64,000 nucleotides of DNA from Actinomarinicola tropica (GTDB taxonomy: Bacteria; Actinomycetota; Acidimicrobiia; Acidimicrobiales; SKKL01): positions 3,375,001-3,439,000 of the forward strand of contig NZ_CP045851.1 in the NCBI RefSeq assembly GCF_009650215.1, in the 5' to 3' direction. Below are positions 34,758 to 43,767 of the stretch, in pieces. The notes below the pieces were generated by a model that ran no database searches, was not told where the DNA came from, and was given only the letters and a program-made list of their open reading frames with translations. A program made the position numbers and the translations under genes. Position 1 is the first letter of the stretch, and each line of letters starts with the position of its first letter.

Positions 34758-35972
34758 TCACGCCGAGCCCGCGACCGCCGCACCGAGCGCGCGCTCGGTC
34801 TCGCCCCGTGGCGAGACGGCCACCTCCGGGCACCCGAGCCACGCGCCGAGGTCCGCGAGCTCCGCGGCGAGCGGTTCGACGACGGGGCCCCGGTCGACGC
34901 CGGGCTCGAGGTGCGCGGCGTGGACGCGCAGGACGCCGTGGGCGCGGTCGGCCTTCACGTCGACGCGGCCGACCAGGCGGTCACCGAGGAGGAACGGCAG
35001 CACGTAGTACCCGAAGCGGCGCTTCGGTGCCGGCGTGTAGATCTCGATGCGGTAGTGGAAGTCGAACAGCCGCTCGCCTCTGGGCCGGAACCACACGACG
35101 GGGTCGAACGGGCTGAGGAGCGCCCGCGCGTCGATGCGTCGCGGGATGGGCCGGGCGGGGTCGCGGAACGCCGGATCGCGCCAGCCGTCGACCTCGACCT
35201 GCTCCACCTCCCCGGCGGCGACGAGCTCGGCGAGCGCGGCGCGCACCGGCGCCTGGAGCTGGCGGTGGTAGTCCGCCACGTCGGCCACCGTCCCCACACC
35301 GAGAGCGCGCACGGCGCGCCGCACGAGCACCACCGTCGCCTCGTGCACGTCGGGCGTCGGCGTGGCGAGCACCTCCGCCGGGAGCACCCGCTCCGGCAGG
35401 TCGAAGGCGATCACGAAGTTGGTGCGCCGATCGGCGACCGCGACGCGCCCTGCCGCGTGCAGCGCGGCGAGCGCCCACTTGCCTGGCGCGTGTCCCCACC
35501 ACGAACCCGTCCGCTCCCCGGCGTTCTCGAGCTCCGCTGCGGTGATCGGCCCCCGCGCCGCCACCTGGGCGAGGACGGCGTCGAGGAGGCCGGGGTGGCG
35601 GGCCTCGATCCGCGACTCGTCGCGCCACCGGCGAGGCCCCGCCATGCGGTGGCGCATCGCGGGATGCAGGTCGACGGGCAGCACCGCGGCCTCGTGGCCG
35701 ATGTACTCGAAGTTCTCGCCGCTGCGCCACAGCAGGTCGTCGAGGCGAGCGCGGTCGTACGCGCCGAGCCGCGAGAAGAACGGCAGGTGGTGGGAGCGGG
35801 TGACGACGTTGACCGAGTCGAGCTGGACGAGGCCCATGCGGTCGAGCGTCCGGCGCAGGTGCCCGGCGTGGACGGTGCCGGTGGGGCGGGGCCGGTCGAA
35901 GCCCTGCGCGGCCAGGGCGAGACGGCGCGCCTGGTCGAGCCGCAGGCGACGCGCGGTCGGTGCGCTGGTCAT
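34758..35972 (-). CDS. YcaQ/AlkX-type winged-helix DNA glycosylase
   Basis: 404 residues. The catalytic QxD motif is present as Gln50-Leu-Asp52 in [17 protein letters not shown], followed by [17 protein letters not shown] and [11 protein letters not shown], all characteristic of the HTH_42 family. E. coli YcaQ removes DNA crosslinks formed by nitrogen mustards. Its ATG overlaps the stop of the HTH-citrate synthase gene (ATGA), although no functional link between the two is obvious. Confidence 0.9.
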
Positions 35973-37342
35973 CGCTCGCCCCGTGCCCGGGTCGTCGGCG
36001 CGCCGCCCGATCCGACGTACCGGGCGCGGGCTCGGAACCGGTTGCCCGGCTCCTCGTACTCCTCGATGGCGTGGGCGATCCACCCCGCCGCTCGCGCCAC
36101 GGCGAAGATCGCCTCGCCGACGCCGACGTCGAACCCGGCGACGTGGCAGAGGGCCGCCAACCCGAAGTCGACGTTCGGCGGCGCGGGTGCCCCATCGGCC
36201 ATGACCTCCTCGACCGCCTCGACGACGGCCACCCGCTCTGCGGGGGCACCCGAGCGGCGCACGAGGTCGAGGAGGGCCACGGCCCGGGGGTCGCCCTCGG
36301 GGTAGAGCGGATGCCCGAAGCCGGGGACGACGCGGTGGTGGCGAAGGTGGTCGGACACCACCGCGCCGACCCTGTCGAGGTCGTCGGCGCCCGCCTGCTC
36401 GACCTGGGCGAACAGGTGCTGCACCGGGACGCTCGCGGTGCCGTGCAACGACCCGCTCAGCACCCCGAGCCCGGAGGAGACGACGGCGTAGGGGTCGGCA
36501 CGGGTGGAGGCCGCGACCCGGGCGGCGAGAGTGGACGCCGCGAGCTCGTGGTCGGCCAGCAGGACGAGCGCGGCGTTCAGCGCGCCGACGAGGGCCGGCG
36601 TGGCGCGGCTCGGCCCCAGTCGCGGCCACAGGCGCGCCGCGATGGCGTCGGGTCGCACATCCACGTCGTCGCCCCCGTCGCCGCCGCCACCCTCGTCGGT
36701 TGCGGCGGGGATGGCGAGCGGCGGGACGGGATCGGTCGACCGGAGCGGCAGGGCGTCGACCATCGTGGCGATGAGGCGCCGGCCGGAGTGGGCCACGCCG
36801 GTGGGACGCAGGTCGTGGCGCAGGGAGTGGGTGGCGCCGGCCACCGCGACGGCGACGCGCAGGCGGTCCCCGGCGGTGGCCGAGCCGGGAAGGCCGGCCA
36901 CCTCGGCGGCGATGAGGTCGGCCGACTTCACGCTGGAGGCCCAGGGGCCGAGGTCGGTGGGCGCCGGGGCGTCGTCGCCGAGCCAGAGCCACTCCGCGAC
37001 CCACTCGAACGGGCGGGTCGACGCCAGCTCGACGGCGTCGCGACCCCGGTAGCGGAGGCGGTGGTCCTCGATGGCGGTCAGGCGGGTGTCGATGACGACC
37101 TCGAGCCCGCCGCGGTCGGGCGCTCGGCGGTGCCGCCGCGCCAGGCGGTCGACGTCGGCGGCGGAGAAGAGGCTCGTCCGCCCGTCGACGGCGCGCCGGC
37201 GGTCGAGCATGCCCCGGCTCACGTAGGCGTAGAGCGTCTCGACCTTCACCCCGAGCCGGTCGGCCGCCTCGCGAGCGGTGAGGTCGCGGCCGGCGAGGTC
37301 CGGCATCGAGGGGTCGGCGGCATCGGTCATTGACCCGATCAT
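35969..37342 (-). CDS. citrate synthase-like enzyme fused to N-terminal helix-turn-helix domain
   Basis: 457 residues (a second in-frame ATG at 37330 is possible). Residues ~20-72 read LTAREAADRLGVKVETLYAY then VSRGMLDRR and LFSAADVDRLARR, a MerR/excisionase-type HTH. From ~80 on it is a citrate synthase fold; catalytic residues are retained: His in SGSLHGTA, His in PGFGHPLYPEGDPRA, Asp in PNVDFGLAAL. The GFGHPLY variant resembles citryl-CoA lyase-like members more than classical CitA. It contains a Gly/Asp insert in mid protein. Divergent from citA across 87 bp with palindromes, which suggests regulation of its neighbour. Confidence 0.85.
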   Translation of the reverse strand: MIGSMTDAADPSMPDLAGRDLTAREAADRLGVKVETLYAYVSRGMLDRRRAVDGRTSLFSAADVDRLARRHRRAPDRGGLEVVIDTRLTAIEDHRLRYRGRDAVELASTRPFEWVAEWLWLGDDAPAPTDLGPWASSVKSADLIAAEVAGLPGSATAGDRLRVAVAVAGATHSLRHDLRPTGVAHSGRRLIATMVDALPLRSTDPVPPLAIPAATDEGGGGDGGDDVDVRPDAIAARLWPRLGPSRATPALVGALNAALVLLADHELAASTLAARVAASTRADPYAVVSSGLGVLSGSLHGTASVPVQHLFAQVEQAGADDLDRVGAVVSDHLRHHRVVPGFGHPLYPEGDPRAVALLDLVRRSGAPAERVAVVEAVEEVMADGAPAPPNVDFGLAALCHVAGFDVGVGEAIFAVARAAGWIAHAIEEYEEPGNRFRARARYVGSGGAPTTRARGER

Positions 37343-37344
37343 GA

Positions 37345-37358
37345 TTGATATGGATCAA
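37345..37358. promoter_or_regulatory. candidate operator TTGAT-N4-ATCAA between two citrate synthase genes
   Basis: 5-bp inverted repeat with ATGG spacer immediately upstream of the HTH-citrate synthase start, followed by the overlapping palindrome CAACGTTG (37356-37363). This AT-rich patch stands out from the GC-rich surroundings. It would suit a dimeric HTH protein. Confidence 0.45.
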
Positions 37359-37429
37359 CGTTGACAACCCTGTTCGCTCGTCGCCACCCTGGGAGCGTCA
37401 CCGCGAAGAGAACGAAGGAGATCGCCTCC

Positions 37430-38590
37430 GTGTCAGCCACCCCCACCTCCGATCCCGCCATCGAGGTCCCCCGCGGCCTGAAGGGCGTCATCGCTGCCGA
37501 CACCGCCCTCGGCGACGTCCGCGGGCGTGAGGGCTTCTACCACTACCGCCAGTACTCCGCTGTCGAGCTGGCCGAGCACCGGAGCCTCGACGAGGTGTGG
37601 CACCTGTTCGTCGAGGGCGACCTCCCGAGTGCCGAACAGCTGCGGGCGTTCCGGGCCCGGGTCGCCGCCGTCCGTGCAGAGCCCCTCCCACCGGTCGTCC
37701 TCGACGCCCTGCCGCTCATCGCCCGGGCCGGGGCCGCCGGACCGCTCGACGGGCTGCGCAGCGCGGTGTCGCTCCTCGCGGCGGCCGAGGGCTTCGCGCC
37801 GGTGATCGACCTCGACCGCGAGACGATCGTCGCCCAGGGCATGCGGGTGGTCGCCGCGATGCCTGCGCTGGCCGCCGGGCTGTGGCGTGCGGGCCAGGGC
37901 CTCGACGTGCTCGCGCCGGACCCGTCGCTCGACTGGCCCACCGACTACCTGCGGATGATCGGCGGCGCCACCCCCAAGCCCGAGCACGCCCGGGCGGTCG
38001 AGCGCTACCTGATCGCCACCATCGACCACGGGTTCAACGCGTCGACGTTCACGGCGCGGGTGATCGCCTCGACGGGAGCCGACGTCGGCGCGGCGATCGT
38101 CGGCGCCATCGGGGCCCTGTCGGGCCCGCTGCACGGAGGTGCGCCGTCCCGCGCGCTCGACACGCTCGACGCCATCGGATCACCCGACCGGGTCGACGAG
38201 TGGGTCCGGCCGCGGGTCGAGGCGGGCGAGAAGATGATGGGGTTCGGCCACGCGGTGTACCGCACGCAGGACCCCCGCTCCGAGCTGATGCACCGCACCG
38301 CGGCCGAGCTCGGTGGGGACCTGGTCGACTTCGCCGAGGTCGTCGAGCGGCGGGTGGTCGAGATCCTCGCCGAGCTGAAGCCGGGGCGAGAGCTGTACGC
38401 CAACGTCGAGTTCTACGCCGGGGTCGTGATGGAGCTGGCCGGCCTGCCCCGGGAGATGTTCACGCCGACGTTCGCCACCAGCCGCGCCATCGGCTGGGCG
38501 GCCCACGTGGTCGAGCAGGTCGAGGACGGCAAGATCATCCGCCCGAGCGCCCGCTACGTCGGCCCGCCCGCGCCGGCGCCCCTTCCCTGA
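37430..38590 (+). CDS. citA: citrate synthase 2 (CitA-type)
   Basis: 386 residues from GTG 37430, with GAAGGAG 9 nt upstream. Catalytic region: His200 in IDHGFNASTFTARVIASTGAD, His235 in SGPLHGGAPSRAL, His274 in MGFGHAVYRTQDPR. The position of the catalytic Asp reads Glu (ANVEFYAGVV); mycobacterial CitA also has NVEF there, so this is a clade feature rather than a defect. It condenses acetyl-CoA (or propionyl-CoA) with oxaloacetate. Divergent from the HTH-citrate synthase. Confidence 0.93.
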   Translation: MSATPTSDPAIEVPRGLKGVIAADTALGDVRGREGFYHYRQYSAVELAEHRSLDEVWHLFVEGDLPSAEQLRAFRARVAAVRAEPLPPVVLDALPLIARAGAAGPLDGLRSAVSLLAAAEGFAPVIDLDRETIVAQGMRVVAAMPALAAGLWRAGQGLDVLAPDPSLDWPTDYLRMIGGATPKPEHARAVERYLIATIDHGFNASTFTARVIASTGADVGAAIVGAIGALSGPLHGGAPSRALDTLDAIGSPDRVDEWVRPRVEAGEKMMGFGHAVYRTQDPRSELMHRTAAELGGDLVDFAEVVERRVVEILAELKPGRELYANVEFYAGVVMELAGLPREMFTPTFATSRAIGWAAHVVEQVEDGKIIRPSARYVGPPAPAPLP

Positions 38591-41964: not shown

Positions 41965-43767
41965 ATGTCGACGATCCGCCAGATCGAACCAGATGTGCAC
42001 GGCGGACCGCCGCCGAACCTCGTCGACTACGACGAGGGGCGCGAGCGGTTCAGCTGGGAGCAGGCGCGAGCGACGCTCGACGGCCTGCCGGGCGGCCGGG
42101 GCCTGAACATCGCCCACGAGGCCGTCGTCCGCCACGTGGAGCACGGGCGCGGCGACGTCGTCGCGCTCCGCTGGCGGGGGAGGGACGGCACGGCGCGCGA
42201 CATCACGTACCGCGAGCTCGACGAGGAGAGCGGACGGTTCGCCAACGCCCTCGCCGCACTGGGCGTGGAGCCCGGGGACGTGGTCGTCACCCTCCTCGGG
42301 CGGGTGCCCCAGCTCTACGCGACGGTGATCGGCACGCTGCGCCACCGGGCCGTGCTCTCGCCGCTCCTCTCGGTGTTCGGGCCCGAGCCGATCCGCCAGC
42401 GCATCGACCTCGCGGCCGCGCGCGTCCTCGTGACGACGCCGAGCCTCTACCGGCGCCGGATCGCGCCGATGCGCGACGAGCTGTCGTCGCTCCGCCACGT
42501 GATCCTCGTCGGCGAGGGCGACGTCCCGGCCGGGGCTGTGGCCTGGGACGCGGTGGTCGGGGCCGCCGAGCCGGTCCACCGGATCCCGCCGACCCGACCC
42601 GACGACCTCGCCCTCCTCCACTTCACGAGCGGCACGACCGGTCTCCCCAAGGGGGCGATGCACGTCCACGAGGCCGTCGTCGCCCACGGCGCCACCGGGT
42701 CGATGGTCCTCGACCTGCGGCCGGGCGACGTCTACTGGTGCACGGCCGACCCCGGCTGGGTGACGGGGACGTCGTACGGGATCGTCGCCCCGCTGGTCCA
42801 CGGCGTGACGAGCGTGATCGACGAGGGCGACTTCGAGGCCGGCCGGTGGTACGAGCTGCTCGAACGGGAGCGGGTGGACGTCTGGTACACGGCCCCGACC
42901 GCCGTGCGGATGCTCATGAAGGCCGGACCGGAGCCGCGTGCCGGCCGCGACCTCTCCGCCCTCCGGCTGGTCGCGAGCGTGGGCGAGCCGCTCCACCCCG
43001 AGGCCGTCCTCTGGGGCGAGGAGGTGCTCGGCCTCCCGATCCGGGACAACTGGTGGCAGACCGAGACCGGCGGGATCATGGTCGCCAACTACCGGTGCCT
43101 GCCGGTGCGGCCGGGCTCGATGGGCCGGCCCCTCCCCGGCATCGAGGCGGTGCTGCTCGCCCGCGACGAGCACGGCGAGGTCGTGCTCGACGCCGCCGGC
43201 GAGCCGGTGACCGTGACCGAGCCGGACCGCGAGGGCGAGCTGGCCCTCCGCGCCGGGTGGCCGTCGATGTTCCGCGGCTACCTCGGCCAGCCCGAGCGCT
43301 ACGCCCGGTGCTTCGCCGGACCCTGGTACCGCACCGGTGACCTGGCCCGGCGCGACGCCGACGGCTGGTTCTGGTTCGCGGGCCGCGCCGACGACGTCAT
43401 CAAGTCCGCGGGGCACCTCATCGGCCCGACCGAGGTGGAGCAGGCGCTGCTCGCCCACCCCGCGGTCACCGACGCCGGCGTCATCGGCGTGCCCGACCCG
43501 GTGGCCGGCGAGGTGGTGAAGGCGTTCGTCAGCCTCGCCGCGGGGTTCGAGCCGAGCGACGAGCTGCGCCTCGAGCTCATCGGCTTCGCCCGGACGCGGC
43601 TGGGTCCGGCCGTCGCACCGCGCGCCCTCGCGTTCGACCAGCACCTGCCGACCACCCGGAGCGGCAAGATCATGCGCCGGGTCCTGAAGGCGCGTGAGCT
43701 CGGCCTCTCGGAGGGCGACCTGTCGACGCTGGAGTCCGGCGGCCCGGATCAGGAGGTGGCGCGGTGA
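41965..43767 (+). CDS. acetyl-CoA synthetase-type acyl-CoA ligase
   Basis: 600 residues. ANL-superfamily motifs: A3 P-loop [18 protein letters not shown]5 [13 protein letters not shown]7 [21 protein letters not shown]8 [17 protein letters not shown], and the catalytic, acetylatable lysine in [18 protein letters not shown]. Closest in style to short AcsA enzymes making acetyl-CoA, but acyl specificity is unproven. First of four genes joined by 1-4-nt overlaps (E2 fragment, ACP, Zn dehydrogenase), so the activated acyl group may pass to the carrier protein. Confidence 0.92.

Follow-up and report, generated by a model that had tools for sequence, protein, structure and literature searches.

Several enzyme-fold transcription factors are known, among them BirA, NadR, PutA, the ROK repressors and MocR/GabR, and in PutA, a trigger enzyme, turnover and DNA binding are coupled. 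Each carries a DNA-binding head on the fold of a metabolic enzyme that is, or was, the sensor. The protein described here, a citrate synthase homologue with a helix-turn-helix head (HTH-CS), resembles them in this respect but differs from all of them in its fold, and we know of no described enzyme-fold transcription factor with the fold of citrate synthase. With the MerR superfamily (SoxR, BldC) HTH-CS has in common a winged helix-turn-helix (HTH) and inverted half-sites; however, it appears to lack the MerR effector domain and coiled coil, and its predicted half-sites are nearly adjacent (TCAA-NN-TTGA) and lie over the presumed -35 hexamer of its putative target, citA. In B. subtilis, CitR is a LysR-type repressor divergent from citA, the gene of the minor citrate synthase. 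Here too the proposed regulator is divergent from a CitA-type citrate synthase, one that shares the NVEF motif of the B. subtilis enzyme 2c6x, but it is itself a citrate synthase homologue instead of a LysR protein.

Two published accounts touch on related proteins. In excerpts of a Caulobacter study, CitA is a moonlighting citrate synthase with a role independent of catalysis, citB and citC have consecutive locus tags, and CitC does not rescue E. coli gltA (PMC7083601). The catalysis-independent role is a point of likeness to HTH-CS, whereas a DNA-binding head is not reported in those excerpts (PMC7083601). Excerpts of a paper on S. coelicolor describe SCO5831 and SCO5832 (citA3 and citA4) as two putative citrate synthases, and mention neither an HTH nor autoregulation (PMC12323332); these genes are probably the HTH-CS/citA pair of that organism. 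In the open-licence PMC literature we found no description of an HTH-citrate synthase regulator.

A divergent pair of citrate synthase homologues and the region between them

The window, by which we mean the whole 64-kb stretch of DNA that was analysed, contains the gene pair listed in Table 1. The original prediction of an N-terminal HTH head on a citrate synthase-like protein, divergent from a CitA-type gene, was borne out by Pfam, which found both HTH_17/MerR_1 and Citrate_synt. HTH_17 (E 4.4e-6) scores 27.3 bits where the cut-off is 27, and MerR_1 (E 1.7e-5) 25.3 bits where it is 21.6, giving a winged HTH at the N-terminus. In the predicted structure (pLDDT 90.9, pTM 0.83), a monomer model, a helix at residues 61–72 is followed by a low-confidence linker and then by the citrate synthase fold (PF00285; 345 residues aligned with citrate synthase 1a59, Z 37.6), where MerR-type regulators have a coiled coil and an effector domain of their own; the citrate synthase fold is most likely the effector domain. 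The HTH model alone is nearest to the DNA complexes of SoxR (2zhg, Z 8.0) and BldC (6ama, Z 7.9), although many MerR and Xis chains match it equally well. All NCBIfam citrate synthase models fall under their curated cut-offs for HTH-CS (best 162.7 bits against 421.3), and in the tree the HTH-CS proteins form a single clade (35 of the 86 rows, support 100/100).

Table 1. Features of the HTH-CS/citA locus (window coordinates).
Feature	Position	Strand	Details and basis
HTH-CS gene, proposed citA regulator	35969..37342	-	457 aa from ATG 37342; ORF, Pfam
Citrate-synthase-fold domain, residues 82-434	36041..37099	-	Pfam Citrate_synt, E 1.8e-61
MerR-type winged HTH, residues 21-71	37130..37282	-	Pfam
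Weaker second operator copy, GATCATGATTGATA	37337..37350	.	1 mismatch to RATCAANNTTGAYA
Putative HTH-CS promoter	37338..37367	-	TTGTCA, 18 nt, CATGAT; consensus scan 9/12
Predicted operator, three half-sites, TTGAT-ATGG-ATCAA-CG-TTGAC	37345..37365	.	Sequence, single exact genomic match, conservation
Operator core palindrome, ATCAACGTTGAC	37354-37365	.	Sequence
Putative citA promoter	37361..37390	+	TTGACA 37361-37366, 18 nt, CACCCT 37385-37390; by eye
CitA-type citrate synthase gene, proposed target	37430..38590	+	Pfam PF00285, E 8.8e-106

An alternative in-frame ATG at 37330, which may be the true start of HTH-CS, would give a protein of 453 aa. The mechanical ORF list opens citA at TTG 37361; the GTG of Table 1, with AAGGAG at 37415–37420, is the likelier start and leaves a spacer of 87 bp (37343–37429). 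CitA scores slightly below the cut-off of NCBIfam NF009005 (329.0 bits against 332) and has, as in 2c6x, a Glu in place of the usual catalytic Asp (NVEFYAG), whereas HTH-CS retains the Asp.

Both palindromes that had been noted in the spacer, TTGAT-N4-ATCAA and a second one, are exactly there, TTGATATGGATCAA and CAACGTTG overlapping as one 21-bp element, and the AT-rich patch said to surround them is evident in the GC content, which is 44% at 37330–37370 but 73% over the whole window. The window contains a single copy of NTCAANNTTGAN, and the sole exact match to RATCAANNTTGAYA in the 3.7-Mb genome is in this spacer. The weaker copy lies 16 bp upstream of the main core and overlaps the HTH-CS start codon. 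The right end of the operator is the TTGACA of the putative citA promoter, which has a weak -10 and is absent from the list of the consensus promoter scan; the putative HTH-CS promoter spans the operator, and shuffles in that scan gave none.

Because the operator would cover both the citA -35 hexamer and the presumed HTH-CS promoter, citA is most likely repressed by default, and HTH-CS autoregulated. HTH-CS is therefore probably a repressor of citA here, and we favour repression over activation. That it could activate citA, either in the manner of MerR or by contacting RNA polymerase, is suggested by the MerR type of its HTH and by the minus-strand promoter, which has an 18-nt spacer and spans the operator, but we regard this as rather unlikely, as the overlap with the TTGACA is typical of a repressor and no citA promoter was seen with the 19–20 nt spacing of MerR targets, the spacer of the presumed one being 17–18 nt by eye.

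Conservation of the proposed operator among relatives

Of 77 loci that were scored, 68 have the motif TCAA-NN-TTGA upstream of the HTH; the loci were drawn from the best 80 of at least 475 confirmed relatives and are rich in Streptomyces. Dinucleotide shuffles gave a mean of 0.2. The HTH was not parsed in three of the 80 loci (L079, L081 and L091), which stand outside the 77, and two others (L033 and L037) repeat the genomes of L005 and L007. Where a divergent citrate synthase or HMGL-like gene is present (75 loci), all 73 that the script took in match with at most one mismatch, 68 of them exactly, so that the palindrome is kept where the gene pair is kept; its loss from such pairs was the outcome named in advance as speaking against the prediction. 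A chance palindrome is ruled out by these counts and by the single genomic match. The exact motif is absent at HTH-CS in L067 and L076, and in L068, which has HTH-CS, it was not found in the 11 kb of the locus or in the genome.

Within the order, the motif accompanies citA orthologues in 9 of the 10 genomes that have HTH-CS and in 0 of the 20 that lack it, absence having been scored at E 1e-20 with at most 16 candidates per genome, and one of the 20 citA genes (L198) being truncated at the frame start. The citA frames of the genomes lacking HTH-CS are at least 486 aa long, mostly too long for a citrate synthase alone; since equally long frames from genomes with HTH-CS carry the motif in 4 of 5 cases (L184, L194, L202 and L203, with no exact motif at citA in L204), frame length is not the cause of its absence. 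The motif also follows citA when the pair is separated. A displaced citA in Actinopolymorpha carries the operator while HTH-CS itself has none, and in another genome (G004) a citA on a separate contig from HTH-CS has its own operator. That the motif is mere promoter sequence was rejected, because the citA orthologues of genomes without HTH-CS lack it. The proposal that HTH-CS controls citA and itself thus gains strong support from sequence comparison: a conserved operator depends on the presence of the regulator, as is expected of a one-component transcription factor.

The operator data also bear on whether HTH-CS could be an ordinary second citrate synthase, with an HTH-like head that serves oligomerisation only and promoter sequence in place of an operator. 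Its relatives are indeed annotated as citrate synthase or citrate synthase family protein, but the operator is conserved, and absent without HTH-CS, and few parts of the protein are as well conserved as the recognition helix (segment ETLYAYVSRG, with T36, Y38 and Y40–G44 invariant in 76/76 aligned proteins); we consider this explanation extremely improbable.

Operator sites number about one for each genome or record. In 22 genomes there are 20 sites, and in 15 of these genomes both the HTH-CS locus and citA have one. By chance or otherwise, the long operator pattern also occurs in 12/76 genomes of the order without HTH-CS, the reversed control pattern being found in 10/99 genomes of the order. 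Operator-like sites in L114, L115 and the genome of L070 resemble chance, and a further site lies at L067:7253.

The active site and a proposed mechanism

All three catalytic residues that had been claimed for HTH-CS were found, namely H300 (LHG), H344 (GFGH) and D392 (PNVD), which we take to be His274, His320 and Asp375 of pig citrate synthase. The triad is intact in 73/76 aligned HTH-CS proteins, with three exceptions, H300 and H344 each being kept in 74/76; across the alignments of 76 and of 22 proteins, five members lack one or both of the catalytic histidines. H265, R353 and R437, equated with ligands of oxaloacetate/citrate, are invariant in 76/76 and 22/22, even in those five members. 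The Arg found in 93/93 other citrate synthase rows of the alignment is a gap in 75/76 HTH-CS rows, so that, as compared among citrate synthase rows, HTH-CS is missing the conserved Arg loop, and in place of the DHxxNAST Asn there is Ala in 75/76 and Ser in 1/76.

Since most members keep the catalytic residues, catalysis may be retained, and HTH-CS could be a trigger enzyme, one that still catalyses citrate synthesis or a related Claisen condensation and in which turnover is coupled to DNA binding. The intact fold agrees with this, but the members without catalytic histidines nevertheless keep the ligand residues, the otherwise invariant Arg loop is gone, the DHxxNAST Asn is replaced, and the non-citrate synthase neighbours in Pseudomonadota point to a regulator. 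The gap at the Arg fits catalysis that is no longer under selection everywhere. A trigger enzyme thus seems to us doubtful, a little more so than an activator of citA; metabolite sensing through the active site of HTH-CS is plausible.

We think it likely, from sequence and structure prediction, that HTH-CS is a one-component transcription factor derived from an enzyme fold, an autoregulated controller of citA that would respond to a ligand through the old pocket. A single fusion event would have joined a MerR-type DNA-binding domain to the citrate synthase fold, whose dimer would set two HTH heads on the operator, so that HTH-CS itself would bind the operator in dimer geometry. Read toward the HTH-CS gene, the predicted operator is GTCAA-NN-TTGAT followed by the third half-site ATCAA. 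By default citA would be repressed and HTH-CS autoregulated; a ligand bound in the oxaloacetate/citrate pocket, which has been retained, would make the citrate synthase domains close and so shift the HTH heads, altering DNA binding. Somewhat more likely than not, the ligand is a di- or tricarboxylate that resembles oxaloacetate or citrate and occupies the old active site. With an operator, a target and a ligand pocket each predicted, a test of this reading could be a matter of weeks.

Other phyla and other neighbouring genes

GTCAA-NN-TTGAY is present in 16/16 loci from Pseudomonadota and Deinococcota, a selection from 72 and 78 plasmid records, directly before HTH-CS in 14 and at the operon promoter in two. 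In 15 plasmid records there are 17 operator sites and none of the reversed pattern, and the exact motif occurs, at any position, in 21 of 26 phylum-level loci. Given the same operator beside HTH-CS genes in such distant bacteria, HTH-CS is most likely a gene switch derived from an enzyme. A different regulator might instead read the motif, in actinobacteria MtrA or GlnR; this appears very improbable, in that the motif tracks HTH-CS at the citA genes (9/10 versus 0/20) and is found again in front of HTH-CS in Pseudomonadota and in a Deinococcus, where to our knowledge neither MtrA nor GlnR is expected. Excerpts of the S. coelicolor account do favour it, since MtrA shifts a probe of the SCO5831–SCO5832 spacer and both genes are up late in an mtrA mutant (PMC12323332).

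The neighbours of HTH-CS vary, and include genes for citrate synthases, CoA-transferases, DUF2332 proteins, transporters and 2-hydroxyacid dehydrogenases, and an HMGL-like synthase. The HTH-CS family is broader than the citA pair, a like protein and the same operator adjoining non-citrate synthase genes elsewhere. From these comparisons there is good reason to propose a large family of transcription factors annotated as citrate synthase in Actinomycetota, Dormibacterota, Pseudomonadota and Deinococcota, with a citrate synthase-fold sensor, a near-constant operator and changing targets. Its operator code would be GTCAA-NN-TTGAY plus the third half-site, nearly unchanged between phyla, and its targets would be the CitA-type citrate synthase, another citrate synthase clade, HMGL-like synthases, CoA-transferases, DUF2332 and operons for organic-acid transport and 2-hydroxyacid dehydrogenases.

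If this is true, hundreds of "citrate synthase" genes would encode regulators. For Streptomyces, rhizobia and Burkholderiales, annotation, the number of enzymes counted and models of flux would all have to change. The family would also illustrate how a central enzyme turns into a metabolite sensor, its natural members standing at differing stages of active-site loss, and the operator would provide a handle on the functions of DUF2332 and of the HMGL-like synthases, which seemingly replace CitA. DUF2332 as a general regulon member was not supported, the motif being at 1 of 30 DUF2332 loci of the order (some cut by contig ends), and that one (L131) is the same place as L017; the link of DUF2332 to the operator rests on L017, L113 and L239. 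The HMGL-like partner, which occurs in Nonomuraea, matches the NCBIfam model of nifV homocitrate synthase best, at 229 bits where the cut-off is 463, and such partners are possibly Re-citrate synthases that replace CitA under the same operator.

Operator between the gene pair

Transcription factors derived from enzymes are a known kind; one that has a citrate-synthase fold, and whose operator hardly differs from phylum to phylum, is to our knowledge new. The helix-turn-helix (HTH) and citrate synthase (CS) domains of the window protein HTH-CS are detectable by Pfam; annotation pipelines label the protein citrate synthase, and no description of HTH-CS as a regulator was found in the open-licence literature. 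Its structure model is confident (pLDDT 90.9, pTM 0.83), and in structure comparison the CS part matches 1a59 over 345 residues (Z 37.6); for the HTH part, modelled by itself, the top matches are SoxR, BldC, a phage Xis and numerous MerR chains, all tied at Z <=8.0. The genome holds three CS genes at E <=0.001, namely HTH-CS, the divergent citA and a third at 1668158.

Features of the window, and neighbours of HTH-CS in the 14 annotated non-actinobacterial loci (L numbers denote relatives' loci)
Feature	Location	Strand	Remarks
HTH-CS, 457 aa	35969-37342	-	ORF; MerR-type HTH residues 21-71, citrate-synthase domain 82-434
Operator	37345-37365		TTGAT-ATGG-ATCAA-CG-TTGAC; spacer between HTH-CS and citA
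CitA-type CS	GTG 37430 (probable start) to 38590	+	ORF, Pfam
AMP-binding acyl-CoA synthetase (acetyl-CoA synthetase-like)	41965-43767	+	3.4 kb from citA
CS	L233, L237
Family III CoA-transferase	L238, L240, L243
DUF2332	L239:1845-2900		Pseudoroseomonas
MFS or GudP transporter and 2-hydroxyacid dehydrogenase	L234, L241, L242
2-hydroxyacid dehydrogenase, FAH, SDR, tricarboxylate-transporter binding protein	L235, L245
HMGL-like synthase	L244
SDR-MFS-VOC operon facing D-glycerate dehydrogenase	L246, L247

Of the 77 loci scored, 68 have the exact operator core, NTCAANNTTGAN, no more than 250 bp upstream of the HTH; 200 dinucleotide shuffles of these loci gave a mean of 0.2 and a maximum of 2 loci with it. 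Among the 73 loci classed by script as divergent from CS or an HMGL-like synthase, 68 carry the exact core and all 73 a core with at most one mismatch (shuffle values 0.12 and 3.06, respectively). The rest of the 808 kb searched held three further core matches, of which those in L089 and L099 immediately precede citA. Read in the direction of HTH-CS the element is GTCAA-NN-TTGAT-N-ATCAA; of the 79 readable actinobacterial loci (99 examined), 78 have a third half-site at a distance of 3-5 nt and 61 have the identical outer G and T. In Streptomyces eurythermus (L067), whose genome is without a close CitA orthologue, an exact palindrome occupies an intergenic position some 1 kb past HTH-CS on its downstream side (L067:7253).

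Distribution of HTH-CS and its operator

HTH-CS was found in 23/99 genomes of the order, and 28/296 genomes of the phylum match it at E 1e-35. A CitA-type CS is divergent from and adjoins it in 18 of the 22 relatives; the remaining four are at contig ends (L008, L014), have no adjacent CS (L013) or have a DUF2332 neighbour (L017). In the best 80 of at least 475 relatives from named genomes the neighbours are 59 CitA-type, 6 other CS, 9 HMGL-like, 3 non-adjacent CitA and 3 other; the script's own classes (57, 7, 9, 4 and 3) were changed by eye for L037, where the frame holding CitA is too long, and L097, where CitA is split over two overlapping frames.

Four comparisons served as controls for HTH-CS as the protein that reads the motif. 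Upstream of citA orthologues in the order (30 of 53 matching genomes compared), the exact core occurs in 9/10 genomes with HTH-CS versus 0/20 without (Fisher p 7e-7). The long pattern TTGAYN{2,6}RTCAANNTTGAY occurs in 16/23 versus 12/76 genomes (p 2e-6), beside HTH-CS in all 16 of the former; the reversed control occurs in 10/99. In 22 named genomes there are 20 sites of the long pattern spread over 18 genomes: 15 lie at HTH-CS, each in a different genome, one lies at a displaced citA and one before DUF2332 (L113); three other sites look unrelated, and the pattern was not found in L048, L067, L068 and L106. Some loci are rearranged: in Actinopolymorpha (L099) citA lies 3 kb off with the operator in front and HTH-CS is without one, in L089 both genes share one orientation and each is preceded by an operator, and in genome G004 citA has its own operator on a separate contig while HTH-CS and DUF2332 share another. 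Two actinobacteria (L017/L131 and L113:1969-3003) have DUF2332 (PF10094), of which no mention was found in the open-licence literature, placed after the operator of HTH-CS.

Relatives on plasmids and change of partner

Relatives annotated "citrate synthase" or "citrate synthase family protein" occur on plasmid records of Agrobacterium, Burkholderiales, Ensifer, Roseomonas, Azospirillum, Ewingella and Deinococcus. Sixteen non-actinobacterial loci were retrieved; an N-terminal HTH was seen in all 16 proteins, and Pfam confirmed it in both of the two tested. The core GTCAA-NN-TTGAY directly precedes HTH-CS in 14/16, in Agrobacterium inside the annotated start yet upstream of the HTH; in L246 and L247 it lies at the promoter of an operon whose last gene is HTH-CS. 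The third half-site was read in 15/16 (spacing 7 nt in 11). Searching 15 of the 16 plasmid records whole gave 17 matches and none to the reversed pattern; 14 of the 15 have a match at HTH-CS or its operon, and the other matches are at W07:48810, W08:663518 and W14:149571. Because protein type and operator are constant while the neighbours change, we regard HTH-CS as a transcription-factor family.

A tree was built from 86 CS domains (35 HTH-CS and 51 others, Pseudomonadota absent); one branch, supported at 100/100, separates all HTH-CS rows from the others. The divergent partner is not a single orthologue: a separate CS clade takes its place in six loci (Actinoplanes, L053, L083 and relatives), and an HMGL-like enzyme with the same operator in L035, L038, L042, L043, L047, L056, L058, L062 and L096. 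None of these nine genomes, which keep other CS genes, has a close orthologue of CitA: the best E values are 1e-61 to 1e-74, compared with 1e-130 to 1e-153 in CitA-bearing genomes. CitA was thus apparently replaced while the operator stayed the same. Re-citrate synthase belongs to the homocitrate synthase family (PMC12016533), which makes a Re-type enzyme an appealing but speculative candidate for the HMGL-like partner. The Deinococcus HMGL-like synthase (L244) has only 29% identity over the matched part. By Pfam, a CBS-domain pair is fused before the CitA-type CS in L006:3-1427 and L051:3435-5072, and CitA frames of 486-884 aa in L180-L206 suggest the same fusion elsewhere, hinting at adenylate control.

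Active site and proposed mechanism

Residues H265, R353, D392 and R437 are invariant in 76/76 and 22/22 aligned HTH-CS proteins, and R417 is kept in 75/76 and 21/22, the exceptions being K. Of the 76 proteins, L047, L057 and L076 have lost H300 or H344, as have L010 and L014 among the 22; L010, L014 and L057 lack both residues. An Arg invariant in 93/93 other CS rows lies in a segment missing from 75/76 HTH-CS. This fits a pocket retained for binding and freed from catalysis in some lines, though most members could still be active enzymes. At the catalytic Asp position HTH-CS has Asp in 76/76; the CitA-type partner has Glu (NVEFYAG), as do 89% of the 93 other CS rows and B. subtilis 2c6x. In Caulobacter, CitB rescues an E. 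coli gltA mutant and CitC, whose locus tag adjoins citB, does not (PMC7083601).

The CS dimer would offer two HTH heads to the operator half-sites. TTGACA in the operator could plausibly serve citA as its -35, and on the minus strand a promoter is predicted across the same bases. Bound HTH-CS would block this -35 and its own promoter. We favour repression of citA because the operator overlaps this -35 hexamer, itself a prediction. Binding of a di- or tricarboxylate, possibly together with an acyl-CoA, could close the CS domains and alter the spacing of the heads. In S. coelicolor, MtrA shifts what is probably the equivalent spacer and lowers both genes (PMC12323332); MtrA and HTH-CS may therefore meet there.
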